This document shows, in pieces, positions 3,685-63,751 of a DNA stretch of 64,000 bases. The notes under the pieces are model-generated. The model had not been told where the DNA came from and searched no databases. It was given only the letters and a program-made list of their open reading frames with translations. The stretch spans positions 1 through 64,000 of IMG/VR virus record IMGVR_UViG_3300028840_003271; one strand, written 5' to 3'. This DNA is from a virus. Numbering within the stretch: the stretch's first letter is position 1; each line of letters starts with the position of its first letter. The position numbers were made by a program, and so were the translations under genes.

Positions 3685-4191
3685 TTACTCCTTCTTTAGA
3701 GAGAGTTTAAAGGGGGAAACAATAATTTGTGGTTCAACATATACAGGATGAACCTCGCCGTCTGGTCCTTTTAACATAATCCATGTGGCTGACAAACCTT
3801 CTGGCATAAAAAGACCATTTGGATCTGCTTGGGGTAACGTTCCAAAAGAACCACCTTGGCGTTTACAACGGTGTACTGCTTTTTCTGGATTTGTATATTG
3901 AACAGAATATGGTAATCCAAATCCAATTGCTTCTCCAAGAAAAATTAAATCTCCATGCATATTAACAATATAAGCATAAGTTGTAATTTCTTTATCTCGT
4001 AACTCTAAAATATCACGAGCAAGTTTTCTTTCTGTCCAACGAGTAATGTCTGGCATTCCAATTTGACGATGTGCTTCACTTAAAGCTTTAGCAGTTTCCT
4101 CGGCCTGTCTATTGTCAGCACTATTTTTTGCAACGTTACTACACCCCATACATAATAAAAACACCACACAAATACTTAATCCTCTTAACAT
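3685..4191 (-). CDS. Exported lipoprotein
   Basis: 168 residues. A hydrophobic signal ends in the lipobox LCMGC, with Cys17 as the predicted lipidated residue, so the mature protein would be anchored to a membrane of the infected cell. The mature part is soluble with a conserved-looking core (YAYIVNMHGDLIFLG) and no enzyme motif. AGAGGAGG precedes the ATG. It leads a group of three envelope-directed genes (this one plus the next two). Phage lipoproteins of this size can act in lysis or superinfection exclusion, but nothing here decides the role. Confidence 0.75.
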   Translation of the reverse strand: MLRGLSICVVFLLCMGCSNVAKNSADNRQAEETAKALSEAHRQIGMPDITRWTERKLARDILELRDKEITTYAYIVNMHGDLIFLGEAIGFGLPYSVQYTNPEKAVHRCKRQGGSFGTLPQADPNGLFMPEGLSATWIMLKGPDGEVHPVYVEPQIIVSPFKLSLKKE

Positions 4192-4192
4192 T

Positions 4193-4522
4193 TTAATCCT
4201 CCTCTAAATCATGTAAGAAAGTACGTAAATCTGACGGGAGACGATCCCAATCTAATTCATTAGCACGATGTAAAATTAAAGAACGAAGCGAGTCTTTATG
4301 TTCTTCTTCTGCTATTATATACTCCTTTTTTAGTTGTCTTAAATCACGAATAGTTCCTTCAACATAGGATTTGTTTTCTCGATAAACATCTGTTTTAGAA
4401 GATTCCCATCGAGTAGCAAAAGTTCTATAAAGAGTTAAGCTTAAAAAGCTTACACCAAAAATTGTTCCTATACCTAAAACAATGCATAAAATAGATATAC
4501 CAATAAATTTAAAAGTATTCAT
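4193..4522 (-). CDS. Small membrane protein with coiled tail
   Basis: 109 residues: one N-terminal transmembrane helix (roughly residues 6-30), then a long charged, probably coiled-coil segment. That layout suits a single-pass protein with a soluble periplasmic or cytoplasmic helix, as in inner-membrane spanins, but there is no lysis cassette beside it to support this. It is one base from the lipoprotein ATG region. Function unknown. Confidence 0.6.
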   Translation of the reverse strand: MNTFKFIGISILCIVLGIGTIFGVSFLSLTLYRTFATRWESSKTDVYRENKSYVEGTIRDLRQLKKEYIIAEEEHKDSLRSLILHRANELDWDRLPSDLRTFLHDLEED

Positions 4523-4535
4523 ATTATTCTCCTAT

Positions 4536-4937
4536 TTATGTTGTTGAGTCTTCCATATCGTCATCATATAAATATGGTGGTGGAATTGTAATTTCTAAAT
4601 CCAATTCGTTAATATGTTTTTCTACTTCCAGTAAATTCCATGGAAAATGTGAATGAAGTTTAAGATTTTCTTGTATAATAGTATATGTTCCATTTTCAAA
4701 CGCTACTTCGTAATACCACTTATCGTTTTGAGAATAAAAATTTACTACTATACCTAGTTTTTCTTGAGTGTTATTTTCTGATTCTAAATTATAAACTACT
4801 AAATCATATTTTACAAATTGTGGAGGTGGAAAAGTATTAGGTTCAGATACTATAAATTTCGGTATGTAGAAACAATTAAAAAATATGATAAGTGTAACAA
4901 TACACGTTAAAAGAATTAATTTTTCTCCAACAGACAT
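4536..4937 (-). CDS. Membrane-anchored hypothetical protein
   Basis: 133 residues with an N-terminal hydrophobic helix (about residues 7-27), then a compact beta-rich domain starting near YDLVVYNLES. The domain has the look of a small SH3-like barrel (KLGIVVNFY ... WYYEVAFENGTYTII), and an acidic tail ends the protein. Grouped with two other envelope proteins. No family recognised. Confidence 0.6.
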   Translation of the reverse strand: MSVGEKLILLTCIVTLIIFFNCFYIPKFIVSEPNTFPPPQFVKYDLVVYNLESENNTQEKLGIVVNFYSQNDKWYYEVAFENGTYTIIQENLKLHSHFPWNLLEVEKHINELDLEITIPPPYLYDDDMEDSTT

Positions 4938-4949
4938 TATTTTTTTCTC

Positions 4950-5912
4950 CTATAAAATACAGTAATCGGTATGTCTACGATATTCTTCTAAACTTTTAGC
5001 GTTCATATATGACATTGATGAACGTAGTCCATTAATAAAACGATGAACAATTTTATGAAGTGGTCCAATATATTCTACAAGTTGTTCTTCTCCTTCAACA
5101 AATTCTGGTCTTTTTTCATATTGTTCCCATTGAGTAGAGTATGATGCCGAACCACGAAATACTTTATGGAGTTTACCATTTAATCTTAATGTTCTACCCG
5201 ATGCTTCTTCTGTTCCTGCTAATATTCCTCCAACCATTACAAGGTCTGCACCAAGAGCGAGACCTTTACACAAATCTCTTGGTTGTTTTATTCCACCATC
5301 AAGAACAATTTGTGTATCAACATTAGATTTAACACATTCTAACAAAGATGAAATTGGTGGATATTCTAATCCAGTTTCAATTTTAGTTGTACATGCTGAA
5401 CCCGTTCCAATACCACACCTTATTGCTTGAACATTATGTTGAGATAACCATGAAAAACATTCTGCTGATGCCACATTACCTACAAGAATATGAATATCGT
5501 GATGTGTAGAATGTAATTTTGTCAACACTTCACTAATTTTAGTATTAGCACCATTTGCTGTATCCAAACAAAAATAACGACATCCACGAGCATAAAGTTC
5601 TTCAAATCTTTCAAAATAATCTCCATTTATTCCAATTGCACATCCTACATCTTTTGGACACTGAATGTGTTCGTGAATTTGATCGGCAATACTTTGAAAA
5701 CGATGAATGTAACCAAATCCACCCAAATTTCTTATAGTAGTGACCAAGTTTGCATTACCAATATCTGGCATTGGACTAGCAATAAGAGGTATACTTAAAT
5801 GTATATCACCATACCATACTGATGTGTTTACATCTTTACGAGAAACAATAGAAGAAACGTGTCTACTAATTAGACCAATATTATTAAATCCTAACGACTT
5901 CAACTTGAACAT
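4950..5912 (-). CDS. guaC: GMP reductase / IMP dehydrogenase family protein
   Basis: 320 residues of a single (beta/alpha)8 barrel without the CBS insert typical of IMP dehydrogenase, which favours GMP reductase (GMP to IMP with NADPH). The catalytic loop GIGTGSACTT contains the active-site Cys, the phosphate-binding segment VLDGGIKQP follows, and the C-terminal NGLRSSMSYMNA matches the family's end. The length is slightly below E. coli GuaC (347). It lies downstream of a phosphoribosyltransferase, so the pair would interconvert and salvage purine nucleotides for phage DNA. The start at 5912 has AAGGT upstream and overlaps the preceding gene by 29 bases. Confidence 0.85.
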   Translation of the reverse strand: MFKLKSLGFNNIGLISRHVSSIVSRKDVNTSVWYGDIHLSIPLIASPMPDIGNANLVTTIRNLGGFGYIHRFQSIADQIHEHIQCPKDVGCAIGINGDYFERFEELYARGCRYFCLDTANGANTKISEVLTKLHSTHHDIHILVGNVASAECFSWLSQHNVQAIRCGIGTGSACTTKIETGLEYPPISSLLECVKSNVDTQIVLDGGIKQPRDLCKGLALGADLVMVGGILAGTEEASGRTLRLNGKLHKVFRGSASYSTQWEQYEKRPEFVEGEEQLVEYIGPLHKIVHRFINGLRSSMSYMNAKSLEEYRRHTDYCIL

Positions 5913-6111
5913 TTGAAGGTAACCTTATACAAACTTTATTAGGGTTTTTGTTAATTCTATAAATATTTTGTCCCAATCGTGTAATAATTTGTCCAACATA
6001 AATTCCTCGTTCGGATAAATATGTAAAAACCTCAGACAATTCTAAAAATGAGTTTGTATCAATATTAATTTGAGTTATTTTGTGGGGTTGTCCCAAGGGA
6101 AGACTATCCAT
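5884..6111 (-). CDS. Small protein squeezed between purine genes
   Basis: 75 residues overlapping the 3' end of the phosphoribosyltransferase gene by 37 bases and the 5' end of the GMP-reductase gene by 29. The sequence is protein-like (SFLELSEVFTYLSERGIYVGQII, then a beta-rich tail). No clear Shine-Dalgarno precedes the ATG at 6111, so translation probably depends on coupling, or a later non-ATG start is used. No family recognised. Confidence 0.55.
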   Translation of the reverse strand: MDSLPLGQPHKITQINIDTNSFLELSEVFTYLSERGIYVGQIITRLGQNIYRINKNPNKVCIRLPSNVQVEVVRI

Positions 6112-6536
6112 TCGGTCGGCTTTATTTGACTATAAAAGTGTGGTGCTGGTTTTATTTTTGGATTCCAAAAAAGAGTTGCTAATGCTGTATATGTTCCAAA
6201 ATATTGAACAAATGTTCGTGTTGTTTTTCCGGTATCTATAATATCATCAACTAATAAAATATGTTTTCCATTTTGTTCATAATCAATATTTTTTACAACG
6301 ATAGGTTTTTCTAATGGTGTTTTTTGTTCTCCATAAAATCCTATTTGAACACTTTCGTGTGGTAACATAAGTTTATTAGCAAGTTTTGTGCTTACATGTA
6401 AACCACTATTTCCAATACCAACAACTTTATCTAATACACCAAAGACAGCGTTATAAGTAATTTGTTGATATAAATCTTCTATATATTTTTCTATATTTTC
6501 TTTTGAACAGTAACGCTTGTCGAGTATTGTTTCCAT
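6075..6536 (-). CDS. Phosphoribosyltransferase, purine type
   Basis: 153 residues of a type I PRTase. The PRPP loop is HILLVDDIIDTGKT, with two acidic residues followed by DTGKT, and GIGNSGL forms the pyrophosphate loop. The size and the short aromatic hood at the C-terminus (WIVFPWDN) resemble xanthine/guanine PRTases. It would turn a purine base plus PRPP into a nucleotide; the downstream GMP-reductase-like gene makes a purine salvage unit. AAGGAG lies seven bases before the ATG. Confidence 0.82.
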   Translation of the reverse strand: METILDKRYCSKENIEKYIEDLYQQITYNAVFGVLDKVVGIGNSGLHVSTKLANKLMLPHESVQIGFYGEQKTPLEKPIVVKNIDYEQNGKHILLVDDIIDTGKTTRTFVQYFGTYTALATLFWNPKIKPAPHFYSQIKPTEWIVFPWDNPTK

Positions 6537-14474: not shown

Positions 14475-15434
14475 TCATTGTACTGTGTATTCCCAACAAT
14501 CTTCACATGCTGTTCCCGTCATATCTCCAGCCAACATGGCCTTTCTTAGGTTGATATATTTTTGACTGTGCCAACATTCCATAAAAGTCATATTATTTAG
14601 GTCTCCACAATCAAATTCATGAGTATGATTAAAGCAACATCCAGATAGTTTAGCATCGTAAGTGATTCTGGCCTCACTGAACAAGGCAAAGCACGCATTT
14701 ACTTGTTTGCTTTCATCTACTCCCCAACGACCAAAATTACCTTTAACTGGTTTACCACCCATTTTTTCCATTGTTTTTCCAGTTAGGTTGGCCTGACTAT
14801 AAAGAGGTAGCCAATAGTGCTCATCAACATATGGTTCTAGTTCTGCTAACAAGGGTTCCATTTTTTCAACTTGTTCATCATTATAACGAATACTTGATGT
14901 ATAAAGACCGCACTTATATCCGTTTTCTTTACGAATATTATAAGCATCTTTGATATGCTGAACTACCATAGCAAAAACTTTTGGAGGCATACGAGTAATT
15001 TCAGCAAATTGTTTTTCGTCTGCAAAATTTAAACTAAATTTCATACTATCTAAACCAGCCTGCATACACTCTTTCATTCTTTCTGGAGTTGTGTGTGGCC
15101 CACCATTAGTAGTAATAAATGAGTAAGGAAATCCACATTCTTTCTTTACCCACTCAATTGACCATGGAAGCCACTTACACAAAAAGCTTTCACCGAGAAA
15201 AAAATGTCCAATTTCTTCTACTCCGGCTTCTCTCATTTCCTTTGTAATTCTTTTGAAAAACTCTTTATCCATTTCTCCCTGTGGTCGTAATTTGTCAGCA
15301 GTAGCACAAAATTTACACTTAAAATTGCATTTAGCTGTAAGTTCCATTTTTACAGCCTTTGGACATGGGGGAGTCAAGCATAACCTGTTTTGTGGAACTA
15401 ATGTTATACCATCTACTTTTTCTGTAATTTTCAC
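14475..15434 (-). CDS. Radical SAM/SPASM-domain protein
   Basis: 319 residues. The radical SAM 4Fe-4S motif is CNFKCKFC (C-x3-C-x2-C) near residue 35. The C-terminal SPASM-like part carries further cysteines (NACFALF, GCCFNH, CEDCWEY) for auxiliary clusters. SPASM enzymes often modify peptides or proteins. The start is GTG at 15434 with AGAGGA upstream. No obvious small precursor peptide gene lies beside it; the next gene upstream encodes a DNA-repair-like protein. The substrate is unknown. Confidence 0.85.
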   Translation of the reverse strand: MKITEKVDGITLVPQNRLCLTPPCPKAVKMELTAKCNFKCKFCATADKLRPQGEMDKEFFKRITKEMREAGVEEIGHFFLGESFLCKWLPWSIEWVKKECGFPYSFITTNGGPHTTPERMKECMQAGLDSMKFSLNFADEKQFAEITRMPPKVFAMVVQHIKDAYNIRKENGYKCGLYTSSIRYNDEQVEKMEPLLAELEPYVDEHYWLPLYSQANLTGKTMEKMGGKPVKGNFGRWGVDESKQVNACFALFSEARITYDAKLSGCCFNHTHEFDCGDLNNMTFMECWHSQKYINLRKAMLAGDMTGTACEDCWEYTVQ

Positions 15435-16565: not shown

Positions 16566-17252
16566 TTAAATTAAATTATCAGCAATAAATTTTTGTTTTT
16601 TGTATAACACAGAACATAAATCGTTTTTATACATTAATTGAGCAACATGTTTGATATGTGTTTTTTGTTTAATTTCTAATTTATATAAGTTTTTTTTACG
16701 ACGATAGATGTGACCATAATTAAAACATATTTTAGTTTGAATTTGTTGTAAAATTTTGATACCACCAGAACAAAAACCTAAACATCTTATATGGGAATTG
16801 GAACGATCTTTTCTTTTAAAGATGGTAATAAAACCATCACCATCAAAAAATCCTCGTAACCAGTCAAAAATTACATCTTGTGGCATCTTGGGTAAAAATT
16901 CTAATTTTGATTTATTTTCAAAGATACTTCTTGATCTCAATAATTCAACATCTTCTGTAGACAAACCATATATTTGAAATACATATTTGTAATAATATTT
17001 TTGGTATAATTTATTATAGTTTTTATAATATTTAATGGGATGTGTTGAATGTAATACGTTTCTAATGTATTGTAATATTTTTAGGTTGTTTTTGCTATAT
17101 TTAAGATTAACACCTAAAATAAAACTATCGTTAGAAGTGGTACGGTTATTGGATTGTAAATACCCATCAGCACATAAAAATCCTAGAACATAAGTTGTGC
17201 TAGGTGTCCATGTAACAAGATTTTGAATGTTTGAAGTATATTGTTGTTTCAA
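16566..17252 (-). CDS. LAGLIDADG homing endonuclease
   Basis: 228 residues with two LAGLIDADG helices, YVLGFLCADGYL near residue 25 and DWLRGFFDGDGFIT near residue 135. It is thus a monomeric two-repeat enzyme that would cut a long asymmetric site. The start is TTG, overlapping the TGA of the CMP-Kdo-synthetase-like gene (TTGA); no ATG lies nearby. It is free-standing, without intein splice motifs. Placed between that gene and a leftover of a homologous 3' end, it most likely homes into the 3' part of that gene. Confidence 0.88.
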   Translation of the reverse strand: MKQQYTSNIQNLVTWTPSTTYVLGFLCADGYLQSNNRTTSNDSFILGVNLKYSKNNLKILQYIRNVLHSTHPIKYYKNYNKLYQKYYYKYVFQIYGLSTEDVELLRSRSIFENKSKLEFLPKMPQDVIFDWLRGFFDGDGFITIFKRKDRSNSHIRCLGFCSGGIKILQQIQTKICFNYGHIYRRKKNLYKLEIKQKTHIKHVAQLMYKNDLCSVLYKKQKFIADNLI

Positions 17253-55439: not shown

Positions 55440-55997
55440 TTATTTTTCTTTCATTAATTTAACAGGACTAAGGGATGGATGAAAACTAAACTCGACTCCA
55501 TCTTTATGCTTTTCATTTATTGAACAATAATAACTTCCCCAATTTGTTCTTCCTTGATGAGAATCCAATTCTATTGATCGTTTTCTATCAAATACTTCTT
55601 TGATTAAACAACATCCACACATTTCGGCACATTTTTCAAGTAAAGGTAAAGAAAAAGCATATCCACCATAATAACTTTTTCCAACTATTAGTGTTACTTC
55701 ACTACAAGGTCCAAATTCTTGTTGGTTTACACAACTTGCTCGACTAGACCACGGACCTTTCAATATCTTATCAGTTCCATTTTTCATTTTAATGTTAAAG
55801 TGACACCCTCCAAATCCATTTCCAGGTCGTTTATAATAGAAAAATTTATAAATTCCTTCATATTCTGCTACGTATAATCCATTTTTTTCTTCAAAAATAA
55901 AATTATCCGGTTCTGGTATCTTATCTACCAAAACCTCAAATGTAGGTGAGTTAGCGTAATCTTTATACCAACGAACTCTACAATTTATAATTTTCAT
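55440..55997 (-). CDS. Hypothetical protein, Cys-rich
   Basis: 185 residues from the ATG at 55997 (MKIINCRV), preceded by GGAAGC and overlapping the previous gene by 20 bases. Rich in Gly, Tyr and Cys; CAEMCGCCL is a possible metal site. No family recognised. It begins MKII but lacks the Ser/Asn cassette of its neighbours. Confidence 0.6.
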   Translation of the reverse strand: MKIINCRVRWYKDYANSPTFEVLVDKIPEPDNFIFEEKNGLYVAEYEGIYKFFYYKRPGNGFGGCHFNIKMKNGTDKILKGPWSSRASCVNQQEFGPCSEVTLIVGKSYYGGYAFSLPLLEKCAEMCGCCLIKEVFDRKRSIELDSHQGRTNWGSYYCSINEKHKDGVEFSFHPSLSPVKLMKEK

Positions 55998-56460
55998 GCT
56001 TCCGATCTTTACATGAGAGAATAGACATATGTACACTCAAATCCCTTATGAGAATATCTTCATATTTATTATGGTAACAATTGGAACATATATACCGTTC
56101 TTGTTCTTCTTTGTAATTATAGTCACTAATCATATTAGTTTCGTAAAAGATTTTAAAACAAATTGGACAAGTTCTTAAACTGTTTATGTCTATGTCTATA
56201 TTCATTTGAATTCGTTTTTCAAACTCGTTCTTAGTTTCATTGTCCTTCATATTACAATATTCTTGACCTAAATAAACTGAACTAGGATAATTATTTGGAT
56301 CACCATAAAAGAAACAAACACCCAATTCTTTAAGAATTAAACCCTTTTCTTGTGCTAACTCTTCTACTCTTTCGTCAAATTCAGATTCTTTTGAACTAAT
56401 ACCAAAAATAGTAAAACTGGTTGAATTGGAATTAGATACAAAACCCTGTCTAATTTTCAT
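55978..56460 (-). CDS. N-terminal cassette protein 1 (SNSNSTSF variant), zinc-binding
   Basis: 160 residues. Opens MKIRQGFVSNSNSTSF, the variant form of a cassette shared by five genes here. The body carries CPICFKIFYE and ICSNCYHN, one zinc ribbon. Other members have different bodies, so the cassette is modular. GGAAAAA precedes the ATG. The cassette's role is unknown; modification by the nearby radical SAM protein is a hypothesis. Confidence 0.72.
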   Translation of the reverse strand: MKIRQGFVSNSNSTSFTIFGISSKESEFDERVEELAQEKGLILKELGVCFFYGDPNNYPSSVYLGQEYCNMKDNETKNEFEKRIQMNIDIDINSLRTCPICFKIFYETNMISDYNYKEEQERYICSNCYHNKYEDILIRDLSVHMSILSCKDRKHENYKL

Positions 56461-56473
56461 AATTTTTTCCTTC

Positions 56474-56560
56474 TTATTGTGTTAGAAAATCAACTACTTC
56501 GTGTGAAAAATTTAACTTTTGTGCTACATATAAAAATAATGAGTGTCTGCTGTAAAATAT
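56474..56560 (-). other. Short open frame without a usual start
   Basis: 28 codons (beginning FYSRHSLFLYVAQKLNF after an ATA) end at TAA 56474, filling the gap after the TGA of cassette protein 2. AAGGAG lies 12 bases before the ATA, rather far. No ATG, GTG or TTG is in frame near the beginning. It may be a relic or a gene with an AUA start. Confidence 0.25.
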
Positions 56561-56561
56561 A

Positions 56562-56855
56562 TCACATACTCTCTCCTTCCACATGTTCTAAATTTACTCC
56601 AATACTTTGAAGATATTCGTTTACTTTATTTATATCGTGTTGTTCCATTACTCCATGAAAATAATATTTTCCATTTACAATAAAAGTTTCTGTACTTAAT
56701 CTTTTTGTCCAGTCTACATTTTTATCGTTTGCTAAATCTTTTTGATATTTTAACCACTTATCAAACAAAACTATTTGTTTTTCTGTTATAAAGTTTTTAC
56801 CAAGCACAAAACTCGACGACGACGAATTACTTACAAATCCACTTCTAATCTTCAT
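56562..56855 (-). CDS. N-terminal cassette protein 2
   Basis: 97 residues, opening MKIRSGFVSNSSSSSF; the body (QIVLFDKWLKYQKDLAND ... YYFHGVMEQHDI) is a small alpha/beta domain unrelated by eye to the others. Its ATG overlaps the preceding gene by eleven bases. The Ser run uses both TCG and AGT codons, so it is not a simple DNA repeat. Confidence 0.75.
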   Translation of the reverse strand: MKIRSGFVSNSSSSSFVLGKNFITEKQIVLFDKWLKYQKDLANDKNVDWTKRLSTETFIVNGKYYFHGVMEQHDINKVNEYLQSIGVNLEHVEGESM

Positions 56856-57321
56856 TTAAGAAATCCTCAATAGGTATTTTGTGATAACCCACTTTAATTG
56901 CTTCTGTATTCAAATCATTATAAGCACCATATGTTTCCATATATGTTCCATAATTATATGCTTTAATAACGTAATCATCTTTATTACAATAAAAAATATG
57001 TTCATGACCATAATGACAACAAGCACTAAATGAAATTTTATTCTCGATAAGAAACTTAATTATATCATCTTGATTACAAACTACACTATATATTAATGAA
57101 TTAGCATCGTTTGGTAAAACTTTATTTTTATCGTATAAAAATCCGTGTTCAAGATGAGAAGGATGTAAACAACTAGAAAACACAAAACCATAATCTAATA
57201 ATTTTTGTGTTTGTAATGGTGTTAAATTGTTTAATAAATTATCTGTATGAAAAAAACCTTTAATCTTTACTACAAATGATGAAGACGAACTATTTGATAC
57301 AAATCCTTGTCTAATTTTCAT
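56845..57321 (-). CDS. N-terminal cassette protein 3
   Basis: 158 residues, opening MKIRQGFVSNSSSSSF. The body has Cys/His pairs (CLHPSHLEHG, CCHYGHEH) that may bind metal. Serine codons at aligned positions differ from members 2 and 4 (TCA/AGT/TCT against AGT/TCG), which shows selection on the peptide. Function unknown. Confidence 0.75.
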   Translation of the reverse strand: MKIRQGFVSNSSSSSFVVKIKGFFHTDNLLNNLTPLQTQKLLDYGFVFSSCLHPSHLEHGFLYDKNKVLPNDANSLIYSVVCNQDDIIKFLIENKISFSACCHYGHEHIFYCNKDDYVIKAYNYGTYMETYGAYNDLNTEAIKVGYHKIPIEDFLNED

Positions 57322-57330
57322 TCTTAACTC

Positions 57331-57831
57331 CTAATAATTATCATTGTCTGTTTGAATATAACTATCTTCAGAAAAAAGAAACTTTTCAAGAATTTCGTCA
57401 CTATCAAAGATTTCCATATTTTGATTTTCAGAAGCATTAGATTCGTGGTCAATATATCCATGTTGTTCAGAATTCCAATCATTCCAGCTAGATGGCCAAA
57501 TGAACGCTTTAATTGATGGAATATTTTTTACTAATACTTTTTCTAACATTGACAAATATTGATTACTATATATACTGTTTTCATTATAATTTCTTTTTGG
57601 TTCAGCATATTGACTTTGATAAAAAGCCCATAGAACTTTTGAACCCAAATCATAATACTTTTCAGGGTCCCACCCAAATTCTTTAGTACCAAATATTTTG
57701 TGAACATCAAGAACACCCATTGTATCAACATATTCATCAAACTTTTTAATAAAATTAGTGCTAATTTTACGTCCAACACATACAAAACTTGACGATGATG
57801 AATTACTAACAAAACCATTACGAATTTTCAT
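57331..57831 (-). CDS. N-terminal cassette protein 4
   Basis: 166 residues, opening MKIRNGFVSNSSSSSF then VCVGRK. The body is acidic and aromatic (KEFGWDPEKYYDLGSK ... IKAFIWPSSWNDW). Lies directly downstream of the radical SAM gene. Function unknown. Confidence 0.75.
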   Translation of the reverse strand: MKIRNGFVSNSSSSSFVCVGRKISTNFIKKFDEYVDTMGVLDVHKIFGTKEFGWDPEKYYDLGSKVLWAFYQSQYAEPKRNYNENSIYSNQYLSMLEKVLVKNIPSIKAFIWPSSWNDWNSEQHGYIDHESNASENQNMEIFDSDEILEKFLFSEDSYIQTDNDNY

Positions 57832-57849
57832 TTTATTTCTCCCTAATTT

Positions 57850-58893
57850 TTACTCCAAGTTATAAACAAAACAGCTTCGACCATTATTTAAAAGACGACG
57901 ACGCCATTTAATCAGACGTGGATTGGTCCACACATCTTTATGAAAGTCGTTACAGTTTAAAATATCAATGCCTTGCTCCCATTCTGACTCACCTTCAACA
58001 AACGAACACGGAAATCCAAAACCGTTACAATTAATGTAAAATGAAAATAGTGAACTTTCACAAGGTTCCACATATTCGCTCAGTTTGTCATAGTTTGGTC
58101 TGTCTTTAATTGCTGACAAATATATTCCAGCAGAACAGGAATCGAAACCATAAGCAACTCCTAATTGTTCACATAATTGAATAAGTTCACGATATTTATT
58201 AACATCTCGAAGGCTATGATAACCGGACTGTTTACCTTTACCTTTTGGTTTAAATTGTAAAAATACAATAGCATTTAATTTTGACAGACGAGAATCGGTA
58301 GAAATATCTTGTACAACCTGTTTTGCTTTTTCAAAAGTTTCTTCTGCTAATACAAAGTGGATATTAACTTGTTTCATTCCAACATCGGTAAACTTTTGTA
58401 TAGCATTATAGCTTGATTCCTTGTTAACAATACTTACTGCTACAGCACCCAATAATTGAGATGCTTTTTGAGCAACTTCATCAGTTACACCTAATCCATT
58501 ACAAGTAAGATTTGGAATTACTCCTTTTTCTTCTCTTAAAAATTGACAAATTTGCCAAAGTTTAGGATGGCTATCAATATCACAAATACCCAAGGCAACT
58601 TGACACACCGTGTTTGGAATTTTACTCCACAACTTTCTAAAAGTTTTCAAACTCATATATCGTCGTAACTCATTACTACCATTAGACTTATAACACCACC
58701 GACAATTTCCTGAACAGTACCCCTCACTAATTTCAATGTCTAAAAGTTCAACCGATGGAGCATATTGTGGATCATCTTCTTTTGTTTCTCCCCAACGAGC
58801 AAAAAAACCATTCTTTTTTGAGAAGAAAAAATTATAGTCGGGTGAAATGCAAATCTTACATTGTGGATAATCAAGAATTTGCACATTATTCAT
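57850..58893 (-). CDS. Radical SAM protein of a phage-associated family
   Basis: 347 residues from the ATG at 58893 (MNNVQILDYPQCKIC). The cluster motif is CSGNCRWC within EISEGYCSGNCRWCYKSNG; C-terminal cysteines (EPCESSLFSFYINCNG, GFPCSFVEG) suggest an auxiliary cluster or twitch domain. Proteins of this type, with the N-terminal VQILDYP...CISPDYNF, recur in my recollection of large phage genomes. It lies between two cassette genes, so peptide or protein modification of those products is an attractive but untested idea. Confidence 0.85.
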   Translation of the reverse strand: MNNVQILDYPQCKICISPDYNFFFSKKNGFFARWGETKEDDPQYAPSVELLDIEISEGYCSGNCRWCYKSNGSNELRRYMSLKTFRKLWSKIPNTVCQVALGICDIDSHPKLWQICQFLREEKGVIPNLTCNGLGVTDEVAQKASQLLGAVAVSIVNKESSYNAIQKFTDVGMKQVNIHFVLAEETFEKAKQVVQDISTDSRLSKLNAIVFLQFKPKGKGKQSGYHSLRDVNKYRELIQLCEQLGVAYGFDSCSAGIYLSAIKDRPNYDKLSEYVEPCESSLFSFYINCNGFGFPCSFVEGESEWEQGIDILNCNDFHKDVWTNPRLIKWRRRLLNNGRSCFVYNLE

Positions 58894-58894
58894 T

Positions 58895-59266
58895 TTAGTC
58901 ATCCAAATTAATAAGAACAATTGAACCAGAATCAGCAAGTTGCTGTAACTTAGTATTTAGATATTCATCATAGTAACTAATATCTGCTTGAATAAAATAA
59001 TAATCTGGATATTGACTTACTGTTTGAACAATTTCATCACCTTTGATGTAAAAATCAATCATACCATCTTTAATTTTATGTCTAAAAATGTCATTATCAT
59101 ATTCAATACTTGTTTTATTATAACGATAACTATGTGTTTCAATTAAGTCTTTAATATCTACAGATGTAGATTGACCACAAGTTGGACAAGCTTTACTTTC
59201 TTGTGGATAACCAATAACGAATGAGGATGAACTACTGTTACTTACAAATCCTGATCTAATTTTCAT
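58895..59266 (-). CDS. N-terminal cassette protein 5, zinc site
   Basis: 123 residues, opening MKIRSGFVSNSSSSSF then VIGYP. A CPTCG half-ribbon follows at residue 28, and the rest is an acidic alpha/beta domain. Its stop is within two bases of the radical SAM start. The serines are coded AGT AGT TCA TCC TCA, unlike the TCG run in member 2. Confidence 0.75.
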   Translation of the reverse strand: MKIRSGFVSNSSSSSFVIGYPQESKACPTCGQSTSVDIKDLIETHSYRYNKTSIEYDNDIFRHKIKDGMIDFYIKGDEIVQTVSQYPDYYFIQADISYYDEYLNTKLQQLADSGSIVLINLDD

Positions 59267-59283
59267 TTTATTTCTTCTTTTTT

Positions 59284-59787
59284 TTAATTAACAACTAAAA
59301 TTTGAATATTACTATATTGATGAATATTATCTATTTCTGTAATAGGAACGTTTTTGACTAATTCGGTTTCATCATAAACAGCTTTAATAGAATTGTGACT
59401 ATATTTGGACACACATAATATGTTATCATTAATTTTATATATATGATAATTTTGTTTAAAATTAGGAATTTGGACAGAACTTGTTATTGAATGAATATGT
59501 ACTAAATCATTTTTAATTTCTTGATTTACCATAATAGAATAACCATGTCTAATGGATCCATGTTTTGTTTTTAATTTCGGATATATTTCAAAATATCTTG
59601 TTGTATAAGGACAAATATTTAATTTTGCTATATGAAAATTATTTTCGTCTAAAATTAGAAGAAATAGATTTAAACTATCTGTATGAGCAACATAACTAAA
59701 CTGTTGTTCAGAACTAAATTCCATATGAAAAAGTGATACTGGACGATATCCACATTCACTCGGCAACACATGTTCTAATAGTTTCAT
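59284..59787 (-). CDS. Hypothetical protein
   Basis: 167 residues, beta-rich, beginning MKLLEHVLPSECGY; no cassette and no recognised motif. AAGGA lies upstream of the ATG, inside the 3' end of the preceding frame. Confidence 0.6.
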   Translation of the reverse strand: MKLLEHVLPSECGYRPVSLFHMEFSSEQQFSYVAHTDSLNLFLLILDENNFHIAKLNICPYTTRYFEIYPKLKTKHGSIRHGYSIMVNQEIKNDLVHIHSITSSVQIPNFKQNYHIYKINDNILCVSKYSHNSIKAVYDETELVKNVPITEIDNIHQYSNIQILVVN

Positions 59788-60013
59788 TACATGTTTCCTT
59801 TTTGTTTCTAGTTACATAACAAGTGTTTTTGGTTTCAGGAAATTTAGTGGTTGCGTTTGTAATACTCAAAGTTTTTATTTTAGTAGAATTTGTAATTTTT
59901 TCTTTTTTTGAAGAAACGGTTTTATTATTTGTTAAAAATTTTAATATATCACTATTTGTAATGTTAAATACTGGTGTACTACTATTACTAATAAAATTAA
60001 CACGAACTTTTAT
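59756..60013 (-). CDS. N-terminal cassette protein 6, AUA start candidate
   Basis: An 85-codon open frame with no ATG or GTG anywhere (one TTG at codon 49). Codon 1 is ATA at 60013, where other members have their ATG, and the peptide then reads I-KVRVNFISNSSTPVF, aligned with MKIRxGFVSNSSSSSF. GGAGAA stands seven bases before the ATA, and the ATA overlaps the preceding TAA. Either AUA is used as a weak start or the gene lost its ATG by one transition. The rest is Thr/Lys/Asn-rich with no further motif, and its last 32 bases overlap the next gene, so partial decay is possible. Confidence 0.6.
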   Translation of the reverse strand: MKVRVNFISNSSTPVFNITNSDILKFLTNNKTVSSKKEKITNSTKIKTLSITNATTKFPETKNTCYVTRNKKETCNETIRTCVAE

Positions 60014-63049: not shown

Positions 63050-63751
63050 CTAACTATATGTATAAGAGAGACATTTATTTTGCTCTGTTTTTGGAAATTG
63101 AAAAGTAAATTTTAATTCTTCAAGTTTTCGTGGTGAAATATCTTTGTAACATCGACTGTCTTGATATGCTTCAATATCATTTAGTTCTTGACAAATTTCC
63201 CAGTAGTCATGAATATGAATGTTACCAACTGTTGGTGATTCTAAACAATCACAAGGTTTAATGTCTCCATTAGGTTTAATCATAACGTCACACCCAAAAC
63301 ATTCTTCACTACCTTCTAAACATCTTCCACTTTTTATAAGATTTTCGGAAGTATTTCTTATTGCTTTAAATCCACTAGTATTATAACGACAGGTTCCTAA
63401 CGCTTGAAAAACCCTAACTACTTCTTTATCTATTGGTTCATGAAATTTATCTTGAGACAGTTCAGCATGTATAACATTTTTTTGAGTTAGTTTTGCTAGT
63501 AACAATGCTCGTTCTTTTAGTTTACCATTAGTGATAATACTAACGTAGTTTACAGACGCTATTGCTAGACATAATATTTTTTCAAATTCAGGATGTATTG
63601 TTGGTTCACCACCACCTAGACAGATAAATTCATCAGTAAACTCTAGACATTTTTTAAACGTGAATAAACTCATATCTTCACCATTTGAAGTACAAGCAAA
63701 TCCACAATGACTACAATGCATATTACATTTTGAAGTTATTTGAACGTACAT
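63050..63751 (-). CDS. Radical SAM protein
   Basis: 233 residues. The motif CNMHCSHCGFAC is at the N-terminus; LGGGEPTIHP is the SAM-binding GGE block. C-terminal cysteines (CFGCDVMIKPNGDIKPCDC) are SPASM-like. This is the third radical SAM protein in the window. Its partner is unknown; no peptide precursor is evident beside it. Confidence 0.82.
   Translation of the reverse strand: MYVQITSKCNMHCSHCGFACTSNGEDMSLFTFKKCLEFTDEFICLGGGEPTIHPEFEKILCLAIASVNYVSIITNGKLKERALLLAKLTQKNVIHAELSQDKFHEPIDKEVVRVFQALGTCRYNTSGFKAIRNTSENLIKSGRCLEGSEECFGCDVMIKPNGDIKPCDCLESPTVGNIHIHDYWEICQELNDIEAYQDSRCYKDISPRKLEELKFTFQFPKTEQNKCLSYTYS

Follow-up and report, generated by a model that had tools for sequence, protein, structure and literature searches.

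A shared N-terminal tag of unrelated phage proteins and its linked radical SAM enzyme as a putative tag-modifying pair

Cassette genes and the conserved tag

The window analysed here is a stretch of 64,000 nucleotides from a virus (record IMGVR_UViG_3300028840_003271, positions 1 to 64,000). Five minus-strand genes in it (starts at 56460, 56855, 57321, 57831 and 59266) open with MKIRxGFVSNSSSSSF or a close variant (the tag, or cassette; Table 1). The in-window search with the pattern GGNTTYGTNWSNAAY(WSN)5TTY, allowing at most two mismatches, returned exactly these five genes, with 0.00 matches expected from shuffled sequences, and the same five were the only matches in the whole 170,004-bp virus record. 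The copy starting at 56460 is the most divergent of them (SNSNSTSF). The remainders of the five proteins are dissimilar and fall into five different C-terminal families, one each, and every one of these families has relatives in other phages which likewise bear the cassette. A sixth frame, at 60013, has ATA in the place of the start codon, with no ATG, GTG or TTG between the preceding stop codon and the cassette; because S15 and G6 are lost, it is judged to be a decayed copy. The sequence-only reading had reported the five starts with their common N-terminus, the complete divergence thereafter and the sixth frame with its ATA; all three claims held, the second for this set of five.

Table 1. 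Tag-bearing genes and the radical SAM gene of the window
Feature	Coordinates	Strand	Length	Remarks
Cassette gene 1	55978..56460	-	160 aa	Tag MKIRQGFVSNSNSTSF, DNA 56413-56460; C-terminal family of about 36 members, CxxC..CxxC stretch further on
Cassette gene 2	56562..56855	-	97 aa	Tag MKIRSGFVSNSSSSSF, 56808-56855; family of 31
Cassette gene 3	56845..57321	-	158 aa	Tag MKIRQGFVSNSSSSSF, 57274-57321
Cassette gene 4	57331..57831	-	166 aa	Tag MKIRNGFVSNSSSSSF, 57784-57831; family of 9, residues FGW..IDHQS..NDN
Radical SAM enzyme (rSAM)	57850..58893	-	347 aa	PHROG 7293, E 7e-73
Cassette gene 5	58895..59266	-	123 aa	Tag MKIRSGFVSNSSSSSF, 59219-59266; CPTCG motif
Decayed cassette	59966..60013	-		IKVRVNFISNSSTPVF, no ordinary start codon; frame runs on to about 59790

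Searches against Pfam, NCBIfam and PHROG gave no function for the window cassette proteins (PHROG 7397 matched the tag alone), and no PDB entry was matched with confidence when two AF2 models were used for structure searches. The model of cassette gene 2 shows an alpha/beta domain with tag residues 1-9 below a pLDDT of 50, and in that of cassette gene 4 the first ten residues have a pLDDT of about 58. The first tag residues are, hence, predicted by the models to be unstructured, which is weak evidence of disorder since invariant columns give AF2 no covariation. No published description of the tag peptide was found in the literature searched, which agrees with the earlier statement that its function is undescribed.

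The distribution of the tag was followed with a 48-base degenerate pattern over viral contigs and prokaryote genomes. At least 120 stretches of viral contigs matched, and just 20 stretches did so in 257 Gb of prokaryote genomes; the tagged genes frequently stand in tandem clusters. The viral stretches include coliphage RB16 (100% match at the same coordinates) and what we take to be RB43 and Klebsiella phage KP15.

The placement of the cassette was N-terminal in 467 of 467 unique ORFs, in 462 of which the start lies exactly five residues ahead of the glycine. In an unbiased N-terminal census of 306 ORFs, picked solely by K.R.[GNS][FYLMIV] after the start codon, N10 was present in 300, S11 in 301 and S12 in 298 (97-98%), S15 was present in 94%, and positions 13 and 14 tolerated T, A, C or G. 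From the near-invariance of N10, S11 and S12 it is inferred that [S/T]NSS is the likely reactive or recognised core of the tag. The serine codons of the five window genes are AGT, TCA, AGT, AGT and TCT at position 9 and TCG, AGT, TCA, AGT and TCC at position 11, precisely as listed by the sequence-only reading, and over 461 cassettes AGY and TCN are both common at every serine position, for example, 222 AGY to 240 TCN at position 12 and 232 to 229 at position 15. Since the serine positions mix both codon families, selection acts on the peptide, and a copied DNA repeat is ruled out as the origin of the tag, which was also the earlier conclusion.

The tagged proteins are roughly 50-300 aa long with conserved C-terminal domains; beyond F16, most of them go on into a hydrophobic strand. 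One HMM round sorted their C-terminal parts into about 80 families, 16 of which have at least five members, and the same tag stands on zinc-ribbon-like, alpha/beta and other parts. Homologues without the cassette are rare and mostly have truncated or decayed tags, which rules out free shuffling of the tag among proteins. The cassette is thus a near-obligate N-terminus of its protein families, and the earlier description of it as modular has to be qualified in this sense. As a separate observation, a viral record of 222 kb in which no radical SAM was detected (G040, locus L067) has one intact cassette gene and a second homologue with the cassette mostly lost (MKIEPSSFVVSKK), as would be expected if tag and enzyme were lost together.

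A radical SAM family linked to the tag

The radical SAM gene within the group belongs to PHROG 7293, which confirms the earlier assignment to a phage-associated family. The cysteines of the window enzyme are arranged as C60-x3-C64-x2-C67, C253, C278-x12-G291-x4-C296 and C341. The SAM-cluster motif CX3CX2C (C60, C64 and C67) is invariant in 11 aligned members, with a different spacing in a few; four further cysteines, C253 among them, are invariant in the rSAM alignment, and the auxiliary cluster motif CX9-15GX4C is met by the invariant C278-x12-G291-x4-C296. A twitch-like auxiliary cluster in the phage rSAM is inferred from this cysteine pattern; the second half of a full SPASM domain, CX2CX5CX3C, is absent from the window enzyme. 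The bacterial enzyme of locus L363 has a complete SPASM (Pfam score 34.1, above the cutoff of 21.5), and the domain is nearly complete in L126. The window enzyme falls below the Pfam radical-SAM cutoff, though the cluster cysteines are present. For the bacterial enzyme, the best NCBIfam matches were MftC, WgkB and similar models, below all equivalog cutoffs; the named models that come nearest are those of peptide maturases (mycofactocin, WgkB, PqqE), with scores far short of their equivalog cutoffs. Identity with viperin (pVip) was rejected for the window enzyme (E 0.0057 in PADLOC; NCBIfam 10.4 against a cutoff of 180 bits). Auxiliary clusters are a feature of SPASM/twitch enzymes, and peptides are the substrates of many SPASM members; BtrN and MoaA, however, are twitch enzymes with small-molecule substrates (PMC9012708), so the domain alone leaves the substrate unsettled.

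The linkage of tag and enzyme was scanned in both directions. When 80 viral loci were fetched by the rSAM sequence (PHROG 7293) alone, 75 had cassette genes within 10 kb, compared to 0 of 120 random viral stretches (Fisher p 1e-49). All 322 cassette genes at these loci were on the rSAM strand, the nearest at a median distance of 560 bp, and for at least one of the five negatives (L347) cassettes lie about 12 kb off in the same record. The first rSAM relatives from an enzyme-only search had cassettes in five of five cases, and so did Vibrio phage D479. When 50 viral records were fetched by the cassette alone, PHROG 7293 was present in 36, compared to 0 of 50 random records (p 1e-15). The random records were smaller on average, although 13 of them are longer than 50 kb and two longer than 380 kb, and the comparison restricted to records of at least 50 kb gave a Fisher p of 2e-6. 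PHROG 7293 was not found in the other 14 cassette records, some of which are fragments; two others, 214-222 kb long and with a single cassette each, lack any detected radical SAM. A within-record distance permutation reached significance only when 24 records were combined (p 6e-11), with 10 significant alone; in RB16, some 20 kb separate the rSAM from the cassette genes.

A comparison of 23 window genes with the 80 rSAM loci showed that only the rSAM and the cassette genes recur, so phage relatedness fails to explain the linkage. Two more radical-SAM-like genes of the window, both minus-strand and of other kinds (14475-15434 and 63050-63751), were rejected as tag partners: they recur at 0-1 of the 80 loci and are unlinked to the cassette in other phages. 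Like D479, the pseudoteven phages RB16 and RB43 have the cassette together with the rSAM. The RB16 cassette protein occurs in 175 records of the phage collection and the rSAM in 172, with nearly equal genus tallies, but most of these records come from a single clade and represent few independent events. In RB16 (locus L385), a minus-strand gene for a vWA-like protein, RB16p109 (3921-6140), lies two genes from the cassette gene RB16p111.

In prokaryotes, a related rSAM was present in 19 of 20 genomes fetched by the cassette alone, mostly immediately adjacent, as in Veillonella parvula SKV38, Acetatifactor muris and Lachnobacterium bovis. Among 397 genomes of Acetatifactor's family, a close rSAM occurs in two, and in each of them a cassette adjoins it. 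The enzyme tree separates the bacterial from the phage enzymes with full support (100/100), and the tag variants track the enzyme groups in most cases: T9 and/or T14 are bacterial and S9/S14 mostly phage, with one virus record (L026) also having T9. The tag is, therefore, specifically linked to one rSAM family in both phages and bacteria. The sequence-only reading had named this co-occurrence as its check, to be refuted by no excess over chance or by cassettes mostly in genomes without such an enzyme; the check was passed far above chance in both directions, and neither of these computable refutations was met.

Operon context in bacteria

In several bacteria, the tag-rSAM pair lies inside Avs-like NLR (STAND) defence operons with the order STAND, small protein, cassette protein, rSAM. 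This bacterial version was missed by the sequence-only reading. In Acetatifactor muris, Lachnobacterium bovis, Veillonella parvula and Clostridia MAGs, an MBL hydrolase (where covered) precedes a trypsin-NACHT STAND, and a protein with an M1E1E6-like domain comes after the rSAM. Sulfuricurvum has an Avs2-like STAND beside a SIR2-like gene, and Verrucomicrobia a STAND with a SMEK domain. The order of small protein, cassette protein and rSAM is kept while the effector parts vary; five bacterial loci (L367, L368, L129, L142 and L382) have rSAM and cassettes with no recognised STAND. The link of the pair to defence is inferred from operon context alone. The small protein of 124-142 aa between the STAND and cassette genes (L363 7441-7866, L365 7092-7496, L366 6770-7141) is weakly similar across these loci, without a family match for the two scanned (L363 and L365).

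These loci share with AVAST (Avs) systems the MBL and trypsin-NACHT STAND genes, which resemble Avs1a/Avs1b/Avs2. However, they score under the Avs equivalog cutoffs (Avs1a 228.7 against 420 bits) and add the small protein, the cassette protein and the rSAM. Literature searches for an Avs-radical SAM link found none. The nearest published idea is that of Kaur et al. (2020; PMC7159879), in which rSAM-SPASM peptide processing belongs to NTPase conflict systems with a C-terminal FxSxx motif. Both kinds of loci couple an rSAM-SPASM and a small protein to AP-ATPase/STAND conflict genes. In the FxSxx systems, however, the motif is C-terminal and is released by a zincin peptidase, whereas the present loci have an N-terminal tag and an Avs-like NTPase and showed no zincin.

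Proposed role of the tag and alternatives

The cassette is most probably an N-terminal recognition-and-modification tag. The dedicated rSAM with its putative auxiliary iron-sulfur cluster would bind the KxRxGFV part and modify the neighbouring [S/T]NSS core, most likely at N10, S11 or S12. In phages, a single rSAM would have from one to eleven small proteins as its clients; their C-terminal domains are unrelated, and their genes lie close by on the enzyme's strand and are probably co-expressed. Once modified, the N-terminus would have one function in all of them, either engaging a common partner or giving the protein protection or activity, and each C-terminal domain would have its own. That the rSAM modifies the SNSS core in dozens of phage protein families is considered likely, albeit inferred without mass data. 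The sequence-only reading had suggested the tag as a possible rSAM substrate, which is supported by the co-occurrence and the enzyme type; linkage is not proof of a substrate, and the modified residue, the chemistry and the biological role are likewise inferred. The chemistry (oxidation, epimerisation, an ether or other cross-link) cannot be chosen from the sequence.

The known SPASM/twitch maturases (MftC, WgkB, PqqE, FxSxx) likewise pair an auxiliary-cluster rSAM with a small gene bearing a short conserved motif, and this RiPP-pair criterion, a conserved short-motif gene adjoining the rSAM, is met here. In contrast to them, the present system is mainly of phages and has as its presumed targets many folded proteins of about 50-300 aa, several per enzyme, with an N-terminal motif. 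A leader-core precursor of the RiPP type is not met: no obvious leader cleavage or export genes, neither a peptide-releasing protease nor a transporter, lie beside the pair in the loci inspected.

The strongest alternative, although unlikely, is that the tag serves for docking or as an address, for instance in virion packaging or towards a host partner, with the neighbouring rSAM acting on a separate target such as tRNA or a metabolite. In the T4 capsid-targeting sequence, one short N-terminal peptide is likewise common to unrelated internal proteins. The predicted lack of structure in the first tag residues and the cassette phages without a detected rSAM also speak for docking. However, the tag differs from the T4 peptide in sequence, is rSAM-linked and occurs in bacteria too, and no acidic cleavage site of the prohead-protease type is visible in it. 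Docking also leaves unexplained why the tag is paired almost exclusively with a single SPASM/twitch rSAM family, even in bacterial operons, where no virion exists, and the identity of serines 11 and 12 is stricter than docking usually needs.

It is very unlikely that the proteins are distant homologues in which the tag belongs to the structure of a common fold or forms a ligand-binding loop, with a pathway such as cofactor assembly as their connection to the rSAM. The hydrophobic strand after F16 in most proteins would fit this, but the number and variety of C-terminal families under the same tag (zinc-ribbon-like and alpha/beta included) do not, and in an AF2 model made for one family, residues 1-9 lie outside the fold, at low confidence. 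Hitch-hiking of tag and rSAM as merely common accessory genes of large phages, suggested by matches mostly in large phage contigs, is all but excluded, as random viral records, large and small, have none, other neighbour genes do not recur and bacterial chromosomes hold adjacent pairs.

The reading as a modification tag, if true, would give dozens of uncharacterised phage protein families a testable function together, would add a radical-SAM system that is chiefly viral and acts on many folded proteins, and would tie it to NLR-like bacterial immunity. Both parts are present in the laboratory E. coli phages RB16 and RB43, which makes direct testing feasible. A bolder reading, in which the rSAM installs a new modification on the [S/T]NSS core of many unrelated phage proteins, joins this phage tagging system to the same pair in bacterial STAND operons and sees in the tag chemistry a point of phage-defence contact, where, for example, phage tagged proteins might engage or evade the STAND sensor. 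The odds are against it, and it is offered tentatively.

Elsewhere on the minus strand of the window, a long run of genes at about 19000-44000 resembles, by the look of the sequence, glycosyltransferase, sulfotransferase, methyltransferase and nucleotidyltransferase genes. It also includes two asparagine-synthetase-like genes, and the whole resembles a surface-sugar or small-molecule island. A possible homing endonuclease (LAGLIDADG-like by eye) stands within a gene run at 16566-17252, and two overlapping long repetitive frames (NQQLLKML.. and SATIENAG..) share one stretch at 715-1540.
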